Of a DNA stretch of 64,000 nt, positions 6,299-36,185 are shown piece by piece. The translations under genes and the position numbers were made by a program. Location: assembly GCA_009840355.1 (NCBI GenBank), contig VXNZ01000019.1, positions 64,101 through 128,100 on the forward strand, in the 5' to 3' direction. This stretch comes from Chloroflexota bacterium. GTDB taxonomy: Bacteria; Chloroflexota; Dehalococcoidia; Lucifugimonadales; JADFKI01. Within the stretch, counting starts at the first letter, position 1; every line of letters begins with the position of its first letter. Under the pieces are notes generated by a model. It was not told where the DNA came from, made no database searches, and saw nothing but the letters and a program-made list of their open reading frames with translations.

Positions 6299-6862
6299 AT
6301 GATACTCTTGATTGACAACTACGACAGTTTCACCTACAACCTGTACCAGTACCTGTGCGAACTCGGCGCGGACGTGGATGTCGCGCGCAACGACAAGATT
6401 ACCATCGCGGAAATCGAAGAGAAGGCGCCGGAGAAGATTGTCATATCGCCGGGTCCTTGCACGCCGAAGGAAGCGGGCATATCAAACGAAGTCATCCAGC
6501 ACTTCGGCGACCGCACACCAACGCTCGGTGTGTGCCTTGGACACCAGTGCATCGGCGATGTGTACGGCGGCACGGTAACCGGCGCCGGCGAGATTATGCA
6601 CGGCAAGATGTCGAGCATCAAGCACGACGGCGAGGGCGTCTTCAAGGGACTACCTAACCCATTCGACGCGATTCGCTACCATTCGTTAGCGGTCATGGAG
6701 GCCGACATTCCCGATGACCTGGAAATCACCGCCTGGACGGACACCGGCATCGTGATGGGCGTGCGCCACAAGACGCATCCCGTAGAGGGCATACAGTTCC
6801 ACCCAGAGTCTATAATGACTAAGGTTGGACACGATCTTCTGCGAAATTTCCTCGAAATGTAG
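6299..6862 (+). CDS. trpG: Anthranilate synthase component II (glutamine amidotransferase)
   Basis: A 187-residue class I glutamine amidotransferase that supplies ammonia to TrpE. The nucleophile is Cys79 in LGVCLGHQ, with the catalytic His168 and Glu170 in GIQFHPES. The oxyanion loop is SPGPCTPKEAG. Length and start (LLIDNYDSFTYNL) are typical. AAAGGA lies six bases before the ATG. In many bacteria this subunit also serves para-aminobenzoate synthase as PabA; its place between trpE and trpD supports the tryptophan role, but a dual role cannot be excluded. Confidence 0.96.
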   Translation: MILLIDNYDSFTYNLYQYLCELGADVDVARNDKITIAEIEEKAPEKIVISPGPCTPKEAGISNEVIQHFGDRTPTLGVCLGHQCIGDVYGGTVTGAGEIMHGKMSSIKHDGEGVFKGLPNPFDAIRYHSLAVMEADIPDDLEITAWTDTGIVMGVRHKTHPVEGIQFHPESIMTKVGHDLLRNFLEM

Positions 6863-6898
6863 CAGCGCAACTTGCAGCGCGAAGCAGTGGAGTTAGCG

Positions 6899-7912
6899 AT
6901 GATTAGAGAAGCCATTGAAGCGGTCGTGAGCGGCGAATCCCTGTCGCTGGAAGCCGCCGCGCAGGCGATGAACGAGATAATGAGCGGCGAGGCGACGCCC
7001 GCGCAGTTCGGCGCATTCGTAACAGCGCTGCGCCTCAAGGGCGAGACCGTTGACGAGATCGCCGGCATGGCTCAGGTCATGCGCCAGCACTCGCTACAGG
7101 TCAAAGTGGACGGCGCTCTGGTGGACACCTGCGGCACGGGCGGCGACGGTTCCGGCACTTTCAACATATCCACCACCGCGGCATTCGTGGCGGCTGGCGC
7201 GGGCGCGAAGGTCGCCAAGCACGGAAATCGCGCGATGTCCGGCTCATCCGGCAGCGCGGATGTGCTCGAAGCGCTGGGCGCGAATATCGCACTCAGCCCG
7301 GAATCAGTTGCGCGCTGCATCAACGAGACGGGCTTCGGCTTCATGTTCGCGCAGGGCTTTCATCCGTCAATGCGCTTCGCCGCCGGTCCGCGCCGCGAAA
7401 TAGGCATTCGCACGGTGTTCAACATATTGGGACCGCTCACGAACCCGGCCGGCGCAGGCGCACAAGTCATCGGCGTCGCGGATGCGTCAATGGCGGCGAA
7501 GATGGCGCAGGCGCTGAGCAGACTCGGCAGCAAGCGTGCGTTGGTCGTACATGGCAATGACGGCTTGGACGAAATTACTATCGCGGAGTCCACACAAGTT
7601 TGGGAACTCAACGAGGGCGCCGTCAGCGAGTACTCAATCTCCCCGGAAGACTTGGGTCTCGACAAGTCGCCGCTCAGTGAAGTGCAAGTCTCCAACACCG
7701 CGCAAAGCGCACAGACGCTCCGCGACGTTCTCGACGGCGGCACGGGCGCAGCGCGAGACATCGTGCTTCTCAACGCCGCAGCCGCGCTACTCGCCGGCGG
7801 ACAGGTGGATAGCCTCCAAGATGGCATCGCCGCAGCCGCCAAGTCCATAGACGAAGGCAGCGCAAATTCTCGCATGGAAGCATTCATCGCGCTTAGCCAA
7901 AGTTTGGAATAG
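6899..7912 (+). CDS. trpD: Anthranilate phosphoribosyltransferase
   Basis: A 337-residue TrpD, which transfers phosphoribose from PRPP to anthranilate. The PRPP-binding signature GTGGDGSGTFNISTTAAFV begins near residue 79, followed by KHGNRAMSGSSGSADVLEALG and the RREIGIRTVFNILGPLTNPA segment. The ATG at 6899 has GTGGAG at 6887-6892; an upstream TTG at 6872 has no ribosome-binding site. The gene is 36 bases after trpG. It is followed by about 245 bases without a recognisable gene before trpC, so trpC-trpF may have weaker or separate expression. Confidence 0.96.
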   Translation: MIREAIEAVVSGESLSLEAAAQAMNEIMSGEATPAQFGAFVTALRLKGETVDEIAGMAQVMRQHSLQVKVDGALVDTCGTGGDGSGTFNISTTAAFVAAGAGAKVAKHGNRAMSGSSGSADVLEALGANIALSPESVARCINETGFGFMFAQGFHPSMRFAAGPRREIGIRTVFNILGPLTNPAGAGAQVIGVADASMAAKMAQALSRLGSKRALVVHGNDGLDEITIAESTQVWELNEGAVSEYSISPEDLGLDKSPLSEVQVSNTAQSAQTLRDVLDGGTGAARDIVLLNAAAALLAGGQVDSLQDGIAAAAKSIDEGSANSRMEAFIALSQSLE

Positions 7913-8156
7913 TCTAGTATAGAAGAAACTTCATGGTCTCTAGAAGAACGGAATGGAGTAGCCAAGTGCAGGCACACAAGGCGTCTCAATCGGCGACAAA
8001 TACTTGACCTACAACTAGCGTCGCAACAAGGCGGAAGACCTAACCGAATGGCTAAACTACGCCAACGGCGGCGGTGTCAAAGTCTATCTGGTGGCATTAG
8101 CCTGCCACAAGCAACGGTAAGGCGTGATTGGCTGAACCTCCGATGAGAAGGGTAAA

Positions 8157-8939
8157 ATGGCAGACATACTGCAGAAAATAGTGGAAGTCAAGCGCGTCGA
8201 GGTTGAACGGCTGAAGGCGGAAATGCCTATTGCTGAACTTGAAGCAAGGATCGAGGCGCAGGCGCCGCCGCTCAATTTGGCGGGCGCACTGTTTGGCGAA
8301 TCGGTGCGCATCATCGCGGAAGTGAAGAAGGCTTCGCCGTCCAAGGGGCTGCTGCGCGAGAATTTCGACCCAAAGTCGCTTGCAAAGATTTACACCGACA
8401 ACGGCGCTGCCGCTATTTCCGTGCTGACTAACACCGACCACTTTCAGGGCAGCATTGAGCACCTGAGCGCCGTCCACTCGGTCGCCAACCCGCGCAAGAT
8501 TCCCGTGCTGCGCAAGGAGTTCATCTTCGACGAGTATCAGGTGTACGAAGCGCGTGCCTACGGTGCGGACGCCATCCTGCTCATCGTCGCGATGCTCACT
8601 CCGGACCGCTTGAAAGCCCTGATGAACTTGAGCCGAAAATTCTGGATGCAGTGTCTGGTAGAAGTGCATGACGAAGATGAACTGAAAGTTGCGGCGGCAG
8701 CCGGCGCGGAGGTCATCGGCATCAACAATCGTGACCTTCGCACATTCACCACCGACCTGGCAGTTACCGAGCGGCTGGCGTCCAAAGTGCCGTTTAGCAG
8801 CGTGGTCGTAAGCGAGAGCGGCATCAACAACCGCGAGCATCTGCAGCGCGTACAGAAGGCGGGCGCACACGCCGCGCTCATCGGTGAGGCGCTCGTTACC
8901 GCGCCCGATGTCGGCGCCAAGTTGGGAGAATTGGTATGA
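8157..8939 (+). CDS. trpC: Indole-3-glycerol-phosphate synthase
   Basis: A 260-residue (beta/alpha)8-barrel enzyme that closes the indole ring to give indole-3-glycerol phosphate. Typical segments are IIAEVKKASPSKG with the catalytic Lys, IYTDNGAAAISVLTN, PVLRKEFIFDEYQVYEARA, EVIGINNRDLRTF and VVSESGI. AGAAGGG precedes the ATG. The stop codon overlaps the trpF start (ATGA), which implies translational coupling. Confidence 0.97.
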   Translation: MADILQKIVEVKRVEVERLKAEMPIAELEARIEAQAPPLNLAGALFGESVRIIAEVKKASPSKGLLRENFDPKSLAKIYTDNGAAAISVLTNTDHFQGSIEHLSAVHSVANPRKIPVLRKEFIFDEYQVYEARAYGADAILLIVAMLTPDRLKALMNLSRKFWMQCLVEVHDEDELKVAAAAGAEVIGINNRDLRTFTTDLAVTERLASKVPFSSVVVSESGINNREHLQRVQKAGAHAALIGEALVTAPDVGAKLGELV

Positions 8940-9634
8940 CTAGCGTGCCTGAATTCAAGATATGCGGCATGCGGACGCTGGAACACGCGCTCGCGGCTGC
9001 GGACGCCGGGGCATCGTTACTCGGTTTCGTCTTCGTGCCGGGCGTACGCCGTCAAGTGTCGCTCGAACACGCGCAAGTGGTAATCCGCCGTGTGCGTGAA
9101 CGGCGCGGCGCGGCTTGCCCTAGCATTGTAGGACTGTTCGCCAATCAGCCGTTGGACGAAGTGAATCGCACTGTGAGCGAGTGCGATTTGGACTTCGTGC
9201 AACTCTGCGGCGACGAACCCGCCGACTACTGGGACAACGTGGACGCCTGGGTGATGCGGCAGGTGAAGGTTGACGATTCGCTCGGTCACGATGCGGCGGT
9301 GTCGGACGCGCTGCGCGAAGTCGAAGAGGTGGCGAAACGGCTTCACATCACCCTGTTAGACAAGCGGGTAAGCGGCGCACTCGGCGGCACCGGACACACC
9401 TTCGACTGGCAGATAGCTTGCGAGATTGCCAAGCGGCATCCCGTGTTTCTAGCCGGCGGTCTTGCGCCCGACAATGTGCGCCAAGCGATCGACACGGTGC
9501 AGCCCTGGGGCGTCGATGTTTCCAGCGGCGTTGAGACCAATGGCGTGAAAGACATTGCGAAAATCGCAGCATTCGCGGATATGGTCAAGCAAGCAGCTCA
9601 TGCACACAATGATGGTGGCGGGGCACAATCATAA
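8936..9634 (+). CDS. trpF: Phosphoribosylanthranilate isomerase
   Basis: A 232-residue TrpF, converting phosphoribosylanthranilate to its ribulose form. FKICGMRTLEHALAAADAG with the catalytic Cys is at the N terminus, VQLCGDEP lies mid-protein, LLDKRVSGALGGTGHTFDW carries the catalytic Asp region, and FLAGGLAPDNV and GVDVSSGVET are near the C terminus. It overlaps trpC by four bases. The trp cluster ends here: no trpB or trpA follows, although tryptophan synthase is needed for the final steps. Confidence 0.96.
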   Translation: MTSVPEFKICGMRTLEHALAAADAGASLLGFVFVPGVRRQVSLEHAQVVIRRVRERRGAACPSIVGLFANQPLDEVNRTVSECDLDFVQLCGDEPADYWDNVDAWVMRQVKVDDSLGHDAAVSDALREVEEVAKRLHITLLDKRVSGALGGTGHTFDWQIACEIAKRHPVFLAGGLAPDNVRQAIDTVQPWGVDVSSGVETNGVKDIAKIAAFADMVKQAAHAHNDGGGAQS

Positions 9635-9890
9635 CGCGCGCGATGCAATTACAGAATTCAATACGCTCGATGCGCTGACGACACTGTTCGACAATCTGTA
9701 TGTGCTTCGGAATCAGATACTACGCGGCGGCGCCACATACGGCAGTTCGGTCAATCGACAGCAATTGCAAGACGACACGAAGATTCTCGCGAGCCTGCTC
9801 CCGAATTTCTTCGACATAATGCAGGCGAACATACACATCGAAGGCTGGAGTAAACCGTACTATCCACGTGTCTATATTCAGTCGTCGTAG
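9600..9890 (+). pseudogene. Truncated HEPN-like protein remnant
   Basis: An open frame of about 96 residues whose core, LDALTTLFDNLYVLRNQIL then GGATYGSSVNRQQLQDD, resembles from memory the C-terminal end of a family of roughly 230-residue HEPN-like proteins with LYVLRNQLxHGGATWNSSVNR. The N-terminal part is missing, because the frame runs into trpF. The HEPN Rx4H motif is also broken: Arg stands where the His should be (RNQILR). It is best read as a decayed fragment rather than a working gene. The family call is from recollection. Confidence 0.5.
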
Positions 9891-13173: not shown

Positions 13174-14064
13174 CTAGACAGGCATGGTGCGGCCCGTATG
13201 CACCCTGCCTATTCGCGCCGCTTCTTCGCCCCCGGGACCGCCTGCCGAGCAGACCATCACGCCCTCGTCAATCATCTCCGTTACATTCTCGGGCGAAACG
13301 CCGTTCAGGAAGAACAGACCGGCGTCGCGACAAGCTTGAAATATACGATCACGAGCCGCGAGAAGTTCAGGTGTGAACGGGTTCGGCGGAGTTTTGAAGC
13401 CGTGCGCCATGCTCATGTCGCCGGGTCCCCATTCCGCATAGGTGATGCCGGATATACGAGTGCTGAGTTCGGCATTCTCCAGCGCGCGCTTGTTTTCCAG
13501 CTTTAGACCCAGCATGAGTTCGCCGTTAGGATTCAAGGGCCAGGGGTCGGCTTTGTCCAGATACTCGTCCGCGGACACGCCCCAAACCTCGGCGGCAGGT
13601 CCCTGAGCGCCAGCTCCACGAGTTCCCCTGCCGATGAGTTCGCCCACGCCAATATCTTGGAAAGTATAGCGGCACGATTCAACGAACGCCCTTACTGCGC
13701 CCGGCGTCTCTGCGTTGCAAAGGATGATGCCATGCACGCCGCGCGCCAAAATTTGCCGGAACTGCCATGCGTTGTAACGCACGATTTCCTCGCTGCCACC
13801 GTCAACCGGCACTTCCACAATTACCGCTGGCGTGCGGTGTCCACTATTCGTCGGTCCGGCGTCCACCAGACCGCGCATGAACTGGTCAAGCCCTGCCATA
13901 TCGAACGCGCCGTGTTCCATGCCAATGTTGATGTAATCGGCGTAGGTGCTCGCCATTTCCCTGCCGTATTCATACGTCAGCACCGCGCCCGAGTGCGCGC
14001 CGGTGTAGTATATGGGCTGACCTTGTTCAAGCAGTTCGATAGCGCGATTAATTCGCTTAGCCAT
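13174..14064 (-). CDS. HpcH/HpaI family aldolase, copy 1
   Basis: A 296-residue member of the HpcH/HpaI (2-oxo-3-deoxy acid) aldolase family, divalent-metal-dependent class II enzymes with a TIM-barrel fold. The metal-binding Glu and Asp fit LGLKLENKRALEN and ITYAEWGPGDMS. MEHGAFDMAGLDQFMRGL and ARGVHGIILCNAETPGAVRA are the usual barrel segments. GGAAGGAAA precedes the ATG. The next gene upstream on this strand is a clear paralogue in the same orientation with the same opening residues (MAKRINR), so this is a tandem duplication. The substrate is unknown; sugar-acid or aromatic-acid breakdown is typical. Confidence 0.86.
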   Translation of the reverse strand: MAKRINRAIELLEQGQPIYYTGAHSGAVLTYEYGREMASTYADYINIGMEHGAFDMAGLDQFMRGLVDAGPTNSGHRTPAVIVEVPVDGGSEEIVRYNAWQFRQILARGVHGIILCNAETPGAVRAFVESCRYTFQDIGVGELIGRGTRGAGAQGPAAEVWGVSADEYLDKADPWPLNPNGELMLGLKLENKRALENAELSTRISGITYAEWGPGDMSMAHGFKTPPNPFTPELLAARDRIFQACRDAGLFFLNGVSPENVTEMIDEGVMVCSAGGPGGEEAARIGRVHTGRTMPV

Positions 14065-14167
14065 TATGATTTCCTTCCGTCAACTATTACAGGTCCAATC
14101 ACCTAAATGGAGGGGCTGCTAAGATGAGCCTGATGAAGCTACATCAACCCTACTGCGCGAATCGCCG

Positions 14168-15061
14168 CTAAACAGGCATCGTCCTGCCGGTAATTTGGCG
14201 CCCGATAGCCGCGCCTTCTTCGCCCACGCCGGACAGTATCTTCACACCGTCACCCATCAGCTTATTCACGCGTGCTTCAACGCTGATGGTGTAGTCGCTC
14301 CAGCTGCACAGGAATGCCAAGCCAGCCGCGTCGCACGCCGCCTTGACGCGCTGCCGCGCCTCTTCCATGTCGTCGGGATACGGCGGGTCGTGTGCATCAG
14401 CATATCCGAACGACAAGCCCATGTCGCCTGGGCCCCACTCGGCGAAGGCAATGCCGGGCACAGCCGCACTCGCCTCGCAATTTTCCAGCGCACGCTTATT
14501 CTCTAACTTCAGCCCGAGGACAATCTCGCCGTCGGGATTGAGCGGCCATGGGTCCGCAATCTTCATGTATTCGTCCGGCGCAACACCCCATATCTCCGCC
14601 GCGCTGCGCTGTCCACCACCACCGCGCCGACCTACGCCTAGCCCGTCGCCGACGCCAGCCGTCTGGAACGGGTAACGGCACGCCTCCACGAACGCCTGCA
14701 CCGCGCCTTCGGTCTCCGCATGGCACAGCAGAATACCATGAATACCACGCGCAAGCGCCTGCTTCATCATCCAGGCGTTCGCACGGACGACATCTTCGTT
14801 CGTGCCATCTGTGGGGATAGTCATGATTACTGGAGGCGTGCGGTGTCCGCTTGGCGTTGGGCCGCCGTCCACCAGCCCGCGCATGAACTCGTCGAGGGCG
14901 GACATGTCGAATGGACCATGCTCCATCTCCACACCGATGTAGTCCGCCCAAGTGGACGCCATCGCCTTGCCGTTCTCGTAGGACAATTCGTGCGCGCCGG
15001 CATTGTACAGGGGCTGCCCCTGGTCCAACAATTCGATAACTCTGTTGATTCGTTTCGCCAT
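14168..15061 (-). CDS. HpcH/HpaI family aldolase, copy 2
   Basis: A 297-residue paralogue of the adjacent gene, with the same framework (MEHGPFDMSALDEFMRGL, ARGIHGILLCHAETEGAVQA, LGLKLENKRALEN, AFAEWGPGDMG). The C-terminal third differs (a segment ending SVEARVNKLMGDGVKILSG), so the two copies may act on different substrates. GAGG precedes the ATG. The copies are 103 bases apart and probably co-transcribed. Confidence 0.86.
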   Translation of the reverse strand: MAKRINRVIELLDQGQPLYNAGAHELSYENGKAMASTWADYIGVEMEHGPFDMSALDEFMRGLVDGGPTPSGHRTPPVIMTIPTDGTNEDVVRANAWMMKQALARGIHGILLCHAETEGAVQAFVEACRYPFQTAGVGDGLGVGRRGGGGQRSAAEIWGVAPDEYMKIADPWPLNPDGEIVLGLKLENKRALENCEASAAVPGIAFAEWGPGDMGLSFGYADAHDPPYPDDMEEARQRVKAACDAAGLAFLCSWSDYTISVEARVNKLMGDGVKILSGVGEEGAAIGRQITGRTMPV

Positions 15062-29682: not shown

Positions 29683-29723
29683 TTGCTTTCCTTTTCATAT
29701 CGTATGATTTGCTTTGCGCAAAG

Positions 29724-29755
29724 AAACGACCCCGTAAAAACATCGGGGTCGTTTT
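29724..29755 (-). terminator. Rho-independent terminator after cysS
   Basis: AAACGACCCCG and CGGGGTCGTTTT form an 11-base stem around TAAAAACAT. The stem is flanked by A on one side and T on the other, so it can work in both directions; the gene ending next to it is cysS on the minus strand. Confidence 0.85.
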
Positions 29756-29780: not shown

Positions 29781-31967
29781 TCAACTCTTAGATATGTTGC
29801 ACGCCAGAAGGTCGGCGCGATCGCCCCACCTGTCCAAGAAACGACCGTAGTTCTTCCGGCTCAGCTCGTCGCGCTCTGCCTCGGCGAGCTCCGACCAGAC
29901 GCGGTGTTCGTGCTGGCTGATGGGAAGTTCCTGGTCAGCGACTATTCTATACCCCTGCGCCTTGAATTGGAAACTAAAATCCAAGTCCAAGTTGCGATAG
30001 AAGCGGAATGTCTGGCGCGGCAGCCCGACATCTTGCAGTCGCTGCCGCCTGAACGCGAAGCAGTACGCCTGCATTGCGTCCATATCACCGCTCTCACCTT
30101 CGCCGTCGTGGAAGTGATGCAAGTCGTCCGTGCGCAGCCCGAACGGTCCGATTACACCGACGGTATCATCTTCAAGCGCCTGCTCTATCGGCCCGAAAAT
30201 ATCTCCCGTAACTTCAACGCTGGTATCCAGCATGACCACCGTTCTGCCAACGCACTGCTTGAGCAAAATCCGCTTCGCCGAACCTTCACCCAGCGGATGA
30301 TCGACATGGATGACGCGCAGTCGGTCGTTGTCGGTCGCCTCTTCTTCCAGCCATTCGTCCGTGCCATCGTTGGAGCCGTTGTCCACGACGACGACTTCGG
30401 CGTCACGGTCGCCCAGCCATTTGAAGGCGCTGCGAACCAACCGCTGCACATCGCCCAGGTAGTTGCATGCGACAATGCCTATTGAAATGTCAGCGCCGTC
30501 AGGGTGGTCAAGCAGCGACGATACTTCTGCCTCTGATGAGAATGTATGCCAGCGTTCCTGCCGCATCTCCCATTCCGTCTTCGGGCGCACGAGAGTCGCA
30601 ACGCCACTGTCCTGCACGACGAATCCGGAATCCGCGAGACTCGCGCGAATGGAGTCGGCGCGAGCGTAGTCCTGCCTGACACGATGCTGTGAGCGATGCG
30701 AAATCTCGCTTGATACGCTGCCGGGCACCGAGTATTCGTCGAAAACACTGTTGAGGCTCAGCCCGAGCACCCTGTCGAAGTATGCCAGGATTTCTAGCTT
30801 TTCCGCCGGGCTGACATCCGAGTGCGCCAATTCCCAAGTCAGCGCGAGTGCGCCCGGCATGTTGAGATTGTCATCGACAAGCGCCTTGAAGCGTTCCTGC
30901 CATTGCGAGACTACATCGGCATCTGTCGCGCTGCCGTTCGCAAGCATACTCCACCGCCAGACCATGTTTCGCAGCCGCAGCAACGCGCGCTGAGACGCCT
31001 TCAGTGATGTGAATGTGAAGTTCAATCGCCTGTCGTACTGCGCCGTCAGGCAAAGGTATCGGAACGCCAGAGGGTCGATGCCTTGAGCCTCGATGTCCGA
31101 CAGGATGAACGAATTGCCCATGGACTTCGCCATTTTCACGCCGTCCGCGAGCAGGTGCTGCCCGTGCGTCCAAATGTTTACCACCTGTTCGCCGGTGTAG
31201 CCTTCGCTCTGCGCAATCTCGCCTTCGTGGTGCGGGAAGATGTTGTCCACGCCGCCGGTGTGAATGTCGATTCGTGGACCCAAGTACTTGATGGACATAG
31301 CCGAACATTCGATATGCCAGCCTGGGAAGCCTTCACCCCACTTGCTGGGCCATTTCAAGTCCCTGCCCGGCTCAGCAGCCTTCCACAGCGTAAAGTCGCG
31401 TGGGTCGCGCTTCAGAGGGTCTGCTTCAACGCGCACGGCTTCCAGCAGTTCCGCCTCCGCGATGTTGCCGGACAGCTTGCCGTAATCGGCGAACTTTGCC
31501 ACTTCGTAGTACACATTGCCATGCACTGCATACGCGAGCCCGCGTTCCACAAGGCGCTCGGTGATTTCGAGCATCTCCGCCACGTGATCAGTCGCTTTCG
31601 GGAACTCTTTCGCGGGAATGATATTTAGTTTCTGCTCGTCGTTGAGGAAACGGTCGGTGTAGAACTGCGCAATCTGCGCGGGCGTCTTGCCCTCGGCTCT
31701 CGCCGCCGCTATCACCTTGTCACCGCCCTGTTCGAGCACTTCTTGGCGCATATGCCCCACATCGGTGATGTTCTTGATGTGCAGCACATTCAGGTCGTTC
31801 AGTTCAAGCGCCCTGCGAATCCAGTCCGCCATCAGATACGACCTAAGATTGCCAATGTGCGCGTCACGGTAAACCGTCGGCCCACATGTGTACATCTTGA
31901 CCACGCCCGGTTCAATCGGGCGGACTTCCTCGATTCGCTTGGACAGAGTGTTGTTTAGCCTTAACAC
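29781..31967 (-). CDS. cysS: Cysteinyl-tRNA synthetase fused to a family 2 glycosyltransferase domain
   Basis: A 728-residue protein in one uninterrupted frame. Residues 1 to about 470 are a complete CysRS: zinc Cys in [14 protein letters not shown] at about 38, GWHIECSAM and [12 protein letters not shown] for the remaining zinc ligands, KMAKS at 278-282, and the C-terminal helical bundle ending [14 protein letters not shown]. From about 488 to the end is a GT-A glycosyltransferase: [35 protein letters not shown] in the DxD position and [17 protein letters not shown]. Start: the GTG at 31967 has GGGGAGC upstream; an ATG 19 codons earlier is less likely. The fusion of a charging enzyme with a sugar transferase is unexpected. 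It looks genuine because no stop or frameshift separates the parts. Confidence 0.92.
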
Positions 31968-32126
31968 TTCCCTGCTCCCCGTCTTCTTGCAATTTGCTGT
32001 GCAATGGTGCAATGGATTGTACATCGGACATTGCCGATTGTCTAACTGCTTTCCAGTCCTGCCGCGTAAACGTTCAAATGATGTGTAGCAATTATGGGGA
32101 AGTCCGACTTCACTAGGATACGCTGT

Positions 32127-34688: not shown

Positions 34689-36185
34689 ATGCGCGCAATT
34701 GGATATTACAGAACGACAAACGGCGAGGAAGAAGACCACGCAGAACGGCTGCGAAAGCGCTTCAAAGACTACTGCGAGCGCTATCTGCACCAGCAAGCCG
34801 CTATTTTCTCCGACGAGATTGGCAGCAACGAAACCGTCAAATTCGCTGAGGGTGGCGATGGTCTGAATGCCGATTTGCCTGACACCGGCGAGGGCGTTCA
34901 TGTCAATGGCAGCATCCACGCCAATGGCAACAGCCACGCGCCCGTCAATGCACACGATAATGCATACACGAATGGCAACAGACCGCATGCCAAACCATTC
35001 CCCGAATTCTCACGCATGCTGGACTATATAATTTCGTCCGGCAACACCTATTTAGTCGTCGTGCCGGACACGATGCACCTAGGCGCGGATGTAGAGGAAG
35101 TGGTGCGCAGCATCATCGAAATCGAAGCAACCGGCTGCAAAGTCATCTGTGAAGACGAAGACCTGCCCGACCCGCTGCAGAATGCGCTCGCATCGCTCAG
35201 CAGCGCCGGCGTGTCCAAGACGCGCAGCGAACGAATTAAGGACTCCATGCGCAACCGGGCGCTTCACGGCAAGGTGCTGGGCAAGCCGCCATTCGGCTAT
35301 CGCAACAGCGGCGACGGCACGCTCGAAGTCGTCGAGGAAGAAGCGGTGACCGTCCGACGCATATTCGACAAGTACATCGACGAAGGCTTGGGCTTGCGGC
35401 TCATCGCGCAGCACCTCAACGAGCGAGGCATCAAGACTCGGCGCGGCGGCAACTGGAACATGGTCACCATCCGCGACATCCTGAAAAACCCGACATACAC
35501 CGGCACATACTACCGATTCGGTCTGCGCCTGCCTCGCTCTCACGAAGCGATAATTTCATCTAAGACATACCGCCAAGCACAAGATCAGACGAAGGCGAAG
35601 CGTCCATCAACTCGGACAGTCAATACAGAGCCGTTCTTGCTATCCGGCCTAGCCGAATGCGGATACTGCGGGAACAAGATGATGGGCGTTACACGCAGGC
35701 AGTCGTGGAAGCGCCGCGACGGAAGAAGCTCGCGCGGCATATACCGCTACTATCAATGCCAAGGCCGCAACAATCAGAGCATATGCGGATATCACACTTG
35801 GCGCGTGGGCGTGCTAGAATCCACCGTGCTCGAACAGGTGCGAGGCATTCTCGACGACGCGCACGCCGTGGATACGCAGTCCGCCGACCTTAACCGCGCA
35901 CGCCTGCAAACAATGCTGGACAAACGAGTGAAGAACGCGGAAAGGCGCTTCCTGGTAGGGCTGAAAGGCGCGGCGCGTGGCGAGTTCGGGTTGGGCGCGG
36001 TGCACACCTACCTCAAGCAGCTCGATAACGCGCGCACGAACGCCGCATCTTGGAACCGCGACTGGGATGACAGAGAGACTATCGACAAGTGGGACACGCT
36101 CACCTTCGAAGTCCAGCAGGCGTTCTTATACATGCATATCTCGAAGATAGTCGTGCGCGACGATTCCGCAGAAGTCATTACATAG
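34689..36185 (+). CDS. Large serine recombinase-like protein with a degenerate catalytic domain
   Basis: A 498-residue protein with the layout of a large serine recombinase. Residues 1-160 are resolvase-like, about 180-300 the recombinase domain (GKPPFGYR, LGLRLIAQHLNERGIKTRRGG, DILKNPTYTGTYYR), and 320-370 a zinc ribbon (C324, C327, C357, C366). The active site looks lost. The family signature YxRvS reads YYRTTN, with Thr in place of the nucleophilic Ser, and the segment that should read like DRLxR is VVVPDTMHLGAD, without arginines. A 45-residue Asn/His/Gly-rich insert (HVNGSIHANGNSHAPVNAHD) interrupts the domain. No phage or element genes or att-like repeats were found nearby. It may be a DNA-binding protein of recombinase origin. 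Confidence 0.85.
   Translation: MRAIGYYRTTNGEEEDHAERLRKRFKDYCERYLHQQAAIFSDEIGSNETVKFAEGGDGLNADLPDTGEGVHVNGSIHANGNSHAPVNAHDNAYTNGNRPHAKPFPEFSRMLDYIISSGNTYLVVVPDTMHLGADVEEVVRSIIEIEATGCKVICEDEDLPDPLQNALASLSSAGVSKTRSERIKDSMRNRALHGKVLGKPPFGYRNSGDGTLEVVEEEAVTVRRIFDKYIDEGLGLRLIAQHLNERGIKTRRGGNWNMVTIRDILKNPTYTGTYYRFGLRLPRSHEAIISSKTYRQAQDQTKAKRPSTRTVNTEPFLLSGLAECGYCGNKMMGVTRRQSWKRRDGRSSRGIYRYYQCQGRNNQSICGYHTWRVGVLESTVLEQVRGILDDAHAVDTQSADLNRARLQTMLDKRVKNAERRFLVGLKGAARGEFGLGAVHTYLKQLDNARTNAASWNRDWDDRETIDKWDTLTFEVQQAFLYMHISKIVVRDDSAEVIT

Follow-up and report, generated by a model that had tools for sequence, protein, structure and literature searches.

Paralogues of aminoacyl-tRNA synthetases are frequent guides to side chemistry that involves tRNA or activated amino acids. 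Their fusion to other enzymes is a known kind of arrangement (PMC2922099, PMC9437257), and in LysRS-MprF and MetRS-cupin, as in the gene described here, a paralogous synthetase is joined to a second enzyme while a normal synthetase is also present; the partner there is another one, however, and a glycosyltransferase (GT) partner is not described in that literature (PMC2922099). A second cysteinyl-tRNA synthetase (CysRS) beside the normal one is likewise found in Desulfobacterales, where this paralogue, CysRS*, has lost the anticodon-binding domain and pairs with SelC* (PMC9437257). In the open-access literature searched, we found no description of a CysRS-glycosyltransferase fusion or of a GT family carrying the CysRS domain CysS_C. 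Such a fusion is encoded in the window, i.e., the whole analysed stretch of 64,000 nucleotides from a Chloroflexota bacterium, and across a bacterial phylum it connects sugar transfer with the charging of cysteine, with split relatives that point to tRNA-Cys as the common element. The open frame, for which the original prediction had given no strand, lies on the minus strand and runs from a GTG at 31967 to a TGA at 29781 (728 aa) with no internal stops, while an in-frame ATG upstream at 32024 would give an alternative product of 747 aa. The features of the locus are as follows.

29781..31967, minus strand: CysRS-glycosyltransferase fusion gene (GTG start, 728 aa plus stop; full-length homologues in other genomes)
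30990..31922, minus strand: CysRS class I catalytic core, aa 16-326 (Pfam PF01406, tRNA-synt_1e, 2e-89; TIGR00435; fold match 1u0b_B)
31884..31886, minus strand: zinc ligand C28 (invariant in 51 fusions)
31848..31859, minus strand: HIGN signature, aa 37-40 (read in the sequence; H37, G39 and N40 invariant in 51 fusions)
31305..31307, minus strand: zinc ligand C221 (invariant in 51 fusions)
31218..31232, minus strand: zinc ligands H246 and E250 (invariant in 51 fusions)
31122..31136, minus strand: KMAKS signature, aa 278-282 (read in the sequence; conserved in fusions)
30723..30980, minus strand: CysRS helical region between core and hairpin, aa 330-415 (helices in the structure model)
30582..30722, minus strand: CysS_C anticodon-binding hairpin, aa 416-462 (predicted G34 readers R425, R429, Y434 and D438, plus D453; alignment to E. 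coli CysRS)
30495..30581, minus strand: linker between hairpin and GT, aa 463-491 (no stop codon; secondary structure from models)
29784..30494, minus strand: GT-A glycosyltransferase domain, aa 492-728 (Pfam PF00535; hairpin+GT model; Foldseek to GT-A enzymes)
30213..30227, minus strand: degenerate DxD, D581-T-S-V-E585 (D in 50/51, S in 44/51 and E in 45/51 fusions)
29985..29987, minus strand: D661, position of the GT catalytic base (51/51 fusions, 21/24 stand-alone genes; role by analogy with family 2 enzymes)
29904..29906, minus strand: H688, position of the C-terminal metal-binding His of GT-A enzymes (51/51 fusions, 15/24 stand-alone genes; role by analogy)
29721..29755, minus strand: terminator-like inverted repeat with T runs, directly 3' of the stop (read by eye in the sequence)

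That a single frame joins a CysRS to a family 2 glycosyltransferase, as originally predicted, is borne out: the 728-residue frame is conserved in homologues, the motifs quoted with the prediction (20 protein letters) and the zinc ligands were all found, and the joint, suspected of hiding a lost stop, is free of stops and likewise unbroken in relatives. The source genome is a 57-contig assembly, which might favour an artefact through a lost stop codon or mis-assembly, but the same stop-free domain order in dozens of genomes from independent assemblies excludes this for practical purposes. The full fusion is present in two Chloroflexi MAGs (L003, L004) and, within a sample of 393 genomes of the class, in 38 full-length copies that contain no stops and share 49-61% identity, next to four copies that are partial, probably because of contig ends or frameshifts. 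A phylum-wide sample of 400 genomes yielded no fewer than 43 full fusions, spread over many families, and some copies that were partial at first sight proved to be full length once the sequence was read. Homologues are 45-61% identical overall, and the domain order at about 730 residues that had been anticipated in related Chloroflexota was seen in both samples. The refuting case named with the original prediction, that relatives always carry two separate genes, did not hold, as most close relatives are fused; separate genes do occur, with the CysRS anticodon hairpin kept on the GT. To judge from these sequences, the weld between CysRS and GT is conserved across the phylum Chloroflexota. In one copy (L221:6222-8339) the GT continues in another frame, with a frameshift near 7508-7553 that could be either a sequencing error or decay.

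A second CysRS match was detected in all 42 fusion-bearing genomes of the class sample, where two candidates per genome were scored and further copies stayed uncounted; hence the fused CysRS is a paralogue. In the genome of the window, the second CysRS, which was out of sight of the original prediction, is a stand-alone protein of 463 aa on a different contig, adjoining IspD- and IspF-like genes (names from sequence reading). In the CysRS tree, 50 of the 51 fused halves group together (support 100/99), with L145 unresolved beside them. This clade is closest to stand-alone CysRS from Chloroflexota and Actinomycetota and well separated from the housekeeping enzymes of the class to which the window belongs. 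Tandem CysRS genes were seen in one further genome (L131, G015:C39, 3075-4442 and 4457-5833) after IspD/IspF/CysE-like genes, the second of them grouping with the fusion-type CysRS subfamily.

The synthetase half was predicted to be a true CysRS rather than the mycothiol ligase MshC, and model scores, the presence of the anticodon domain and the best fold match agree with this. The protein scores 390.7 bits against TIGR00435 (CysRS equivalog; cut-off 340) but 206.9 bits against TIGR03447 (MshC equivalog; cut-off 485.1; both NCBIfam). The HIGN motif and the zinc ligands C28, C221, H246 and E250 of the CysRS zinc site are invariant or nearly so in the 51 fusions; KM(A/S)KS is present in the 12 fusions shown in the alignment, with M279 and K281 invariant and K278, A280 and S282 nearly so among the 51. 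A model of the full-length protein (pLDDT 90.4, pTM 0.89) has as its best match the complex of E. coli CysRS and tRNA-Cys in 1u0b (E 1.4e-36, TMt 0.86; target of 461 residues), with MshC ranking behind. The catalytic core, zinc ligands, KM(A/S)KS and hairpin are thus shared with CysS; the fusion differs in being a paralogue beside the housekeeping cysS, in its appended GT-A domain, and in a helical region in which the Pfam scan gave no DALR_2 detection. CysS_C itself was weak in that scan (aa 425-458, 0.03).

As Hauenstein et al. (2004) are relayed in PMC12684709, E. coli CysRS reads G34 of its tRNA through R427, D436 and W432, and R423 together with D436 belongs to a water network. The fusion residues R425, R429, Y434, D438 and D453 align to E. 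coli R423, R427, W432, D436 and D451. In E. coli numbering, R427, D436 and D451 are present in 51/51 fusions, an aromatic residue at 432 in 50/51 and R423 in 50/51, the exceptions being one exchange of R to H and one of the aromatic residue to H; the C-terminal W458 of the E. coli enzyme is replaced by V, L or I. The fused synthetase is therefore regarded as a genuine paralogous CysRS in which the zinc site for cysteine binding, the motifs for adenylation and the predicted G34 readers are all retained.

This bears on two further explanations of the synthetase half. It could act as an MshC-like ligase, joining cysteine to an amino sugar supplied by the GT half in the making of a mycothiol-related thiol, since in the window's genome an MshD-like double-GNAT gene lies close to one for an MshA-like GT4, with no dedicated MshC; both genes score below the curated cut-offs, and no MshC above its cut-off was found in that genome. 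The fusion shares with MshC the superfamily and the cysteine-activation site. These genes lie about 1 kb apart at 6507-8021 (+) and 8882-9784 (-) of L292 (G000:C33:72000-82868). MshC, however, is devoid of the anticodon hairpin, which the fusion keeps under strong constraint, and the fusion scores far below the MshC cut-off while passing that for CysRS. MshD-like genes are not enriched with it either (E <= 1e-22 in the class sample; 7/42 genomes with the fusion vs 49/351 without), and of 11 genomes with an MshD above cut-off, six lack the fusion. The MshC score, the constrained hairpin and the absence of co-occurrence with MshD make a mycothiol-like role very improbable, and the sugar-cysteine link imagined in the original prediction was not upheld.

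Alternatively, the paralogue may charge a special tRNA, as CysRS* charges SelC*, and its position beside a normal CysRS would fit such a role. Yet the fusion retains the anticodon domain that CysRS* has lost, the tRNA matches scanned in the window's genome comprise a single tRNA-Cys(GCA), with U before CCA, and no tRNA-Sec or other special tRNA, and no tRNA gene is a constant neighbour of the fusion; we consider this explanation still more remote than the ligase.

The GT half passes the cut-off of Glycos_transf_2 (PF00535; aa 495-645, 1.8e-15, 57.7 bits, cut-off 23.3). PDB sequence searches with this half alone gave weak matches only, and fold comparison was therefore used. The hairpin+GT model (pLDDT 94.3) adopts a GT-A fold, and Foldseek matched it to many GT-A enzymes, among which 6p61, a glycosyltransferase of Leptospira, leads by E-value (TMt 0.78) and ppGalNAc-transferases come next. 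Of a GT-A active site, the fold and D581, D661 and H688 are in place, whereas the metal motif, in correction of the original prediction, is not the normal DxD but D-T-S-V-E. This motif is degenerate throughout the family: the third position is Ser, Gly, Ala or Cys in nearly all aligned members and never Asp, while the fusions mostly carry Ser there and Glu two residues later. The donor-binding motif NGSNDGT is also variable. With the three residues kept but Ser in the DxD and a variable donor motif, the site looks active but unusual. Relative to GT2 enzymes and ppGalNAc-transferases, the GT-A fold, the first Asp of DxD, the catalytic Asp and the C-terminal His are held in common; the fusion family differs in having D-x-S-V-E for DxD and CysS_C instead of lectin or membrane parts.

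A profile of the hairpin plus GT (A2) was used to find members across the phylum, and in several families it retrieved not only fusions but also separate genes that encode about 300-345 aa. They lack a synthetase core, yet their match to A2 starts within its first few positions, which means that they begin with the CysRS anticodon hairpin. When six of them were scanned against Pfam, GT2 was found in 6/6 and CysS_C above cut-off in 4/6, with a fifth just below (22.9 vs 23, by eye). In the stand-alone GTs that contain the region, R427 and D436 are each present in 18/18, an aromatic residue at 432 in 18/18 and R423 in 17/17, and the D451 position is invariant in every one; these G34-reader positions rank among the most conserved hairpin columns. 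In two genomes of family f119, the separate CysS_C-GT gene is convergent, tail to tail, with a CysRS gene (L215:5924-8474, L216:6269-8745). The GT tree places the separate genes of family f116 among the fused GTs (99/93) and the other separate genes in a second group, indicating loss of the synthetase core but not of the hairpin, at least in f116. Some f116 stand-alones have lost H688 while their hairpin is intact, so the hairpin is the more constrained part. As far as these alignments tell, the near-constant companion of the GT family is the anticodon hairpin, not the synthetase core.

Since GT relatives without a synthetase core keep the hairpin that reads tRNA-Cys, the GT probably works on tRNA-Cys. 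We thus propose, with a probability of roughly 0.4, a glycosyltransferase docked on tRNA-Cys through the CysRS hairpin. The hairpin would bind the anticodon stem-loop and place the GT active site beside it, from which tRNA-Cys or cysteinyl-tRNA would follow as acceptor: with a nucleotide sugar as donor, the sugar would end up on a (modified) nucleoside in the anticodon loop, cysteinyl-tRNA or a partner bound to that molecule being the less likely target. Where the halves are fused, charging and modification of tRNA-Cys would be combined in a single protein, whereas in the split form the GT would bind the tRNA alone and an ordinary CysRS would charge it. We count in favour of this docking the conserved fusion beside a second CysRS, the equivalog cut-off, the G34 readers, the best match to 1u0b, the separate CysS_C+GT genes, their convergent CysRS neighbours, the nesting in f116, the distribution outside the phylum given below and purifying selection. 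More tentatively, we suggest that the whole group, fused or free, may be a bacterial family of tRNA glycosyltransferases targeted by a borrowed CysRS hairpin and putting sugar onto tRNA-Cys or cysteinyl-tRNA. A precedent is offered by the animal glycosyltransferases QTGAL and QTMAN, which act on tRNA anticodon bases (queuosine, in tRNA-Tyr and tRNA-Asp); the likeness is one of working principle only, a GT acting on an anticodon-loop base. To our knowledge tRNA-Cys(GCA) does not carry queuosine and hence lacks the one kind of sugar acceptor that is known, a point against docking for sugar transfer.

Catalysis, moreover, is not certain, given the degenerate DxD, the variable NGSNDGT and the loss of H688 in f116, and the main rival to our proposal is accordingly a non-catalytic GT fold, serving as a platform that binds or senses tRNA, the ribosome or a nucleotide ligand and modulates a specialised second CysRS. 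The same three features speak for such a pseudo-enzyme. The fused forms, on the other hand, retain the pattern of a working GT-A enzyme (D581 in 50/51, D661 and H688 in 51/51, along with Y657/R658), and dN/dS in pairs of close homologues is low, 0.05-0.27 for the GT domain and 0.06-0.26 for the CysRS half, by which measure the GT domain is under purifying selection. The ppGalNAc-transferases, among the closest folds, also do without a canonical DxD. On balance we hold a pseudo-enzyme possible but unlikely. The hairpin residues may also be kept for folding and not only for tRNA contact, because ordinary CysRS conserve them too.

Other phyla were sampled through 36 genomes reached by CysRS matches, a small and non-random set. 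The GT family (E < 1e-30) is present in 3/36, one from Chloroflexi and two from Actinomycetota, and these are the only genomes whose CysRS is adjacent to the fusion clade in the tree. One Actinomycetota copy carries the hairpin and the other does not (L285), the latter counting against docking. At L290:1501-3216, an Actinomycetota GT homologue without the hairpin lies, by eye, directly upstream of a MurB-like gene.

This last position would suit another explanation, in which a backup or stress CysRS merely travels together with a GT for an unrelated acceptor (lipid, wall or protein), as would the ever-present second CysRS of the class sample and the lack of constant neighbours. It does not predict, though, that separate GT genes keep a tRNA-reading hairpin with invariant G34 readers, and we deem it distinctly doubtful. 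No constant neighbour of the fusion or the GT genes was found over the lineages, tRNA-modification, sugar-pathway and tRNA genes included; for tRNA-Cys docking, the want of a tRNA-modification or sugar-pathway neighbour is a further point against.

If the GT does modify tRNA-Cys, a new modification of the decoding loop would be expected, detectable by mass spectrometry, and no bacterial enzyme known to us so far adds sugar to tRNA. A dead GT would make this a large pseudo-enzyme conserved on a synthetase, likewise without explanation. Either way, many Chloroflexota genomes should be looked at again where an extra 'cysteine--tRNA ligase' or just a 'glycosyltransferase family 2' is annotated.

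None of the recurring neighbours suggests a pathway: in the window's own order the fusion is repeatedly accompanied by genes for pyruvate kinase, a zinc-ribbon protein and a recombinase-like protein, the f116 stand-alones adjoin an M3-peptidase-like gene, and those of f117 adjoin ETF and carboxylase-like genes. Two adjacent paralogous genes for HpcH/HpaI-type aldolase-like proteins of about 296 aa were also noted in the window (13174-15061, minus strand). The recombinase-like gene (34689-36185, plus strand), which is found again beside the zinc-ribbon and pyruvate kinase genes in three further genomes (L113, L115, L126), encodes a serine-recombinase-like protein with the N-terminal motif YYRTTNG. 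Active serine recombinases carry Y-x-R-x-S, and the catalytic Ser of this protein therefore seems to be lost, so that it looks like a domesticated recombinase gene.
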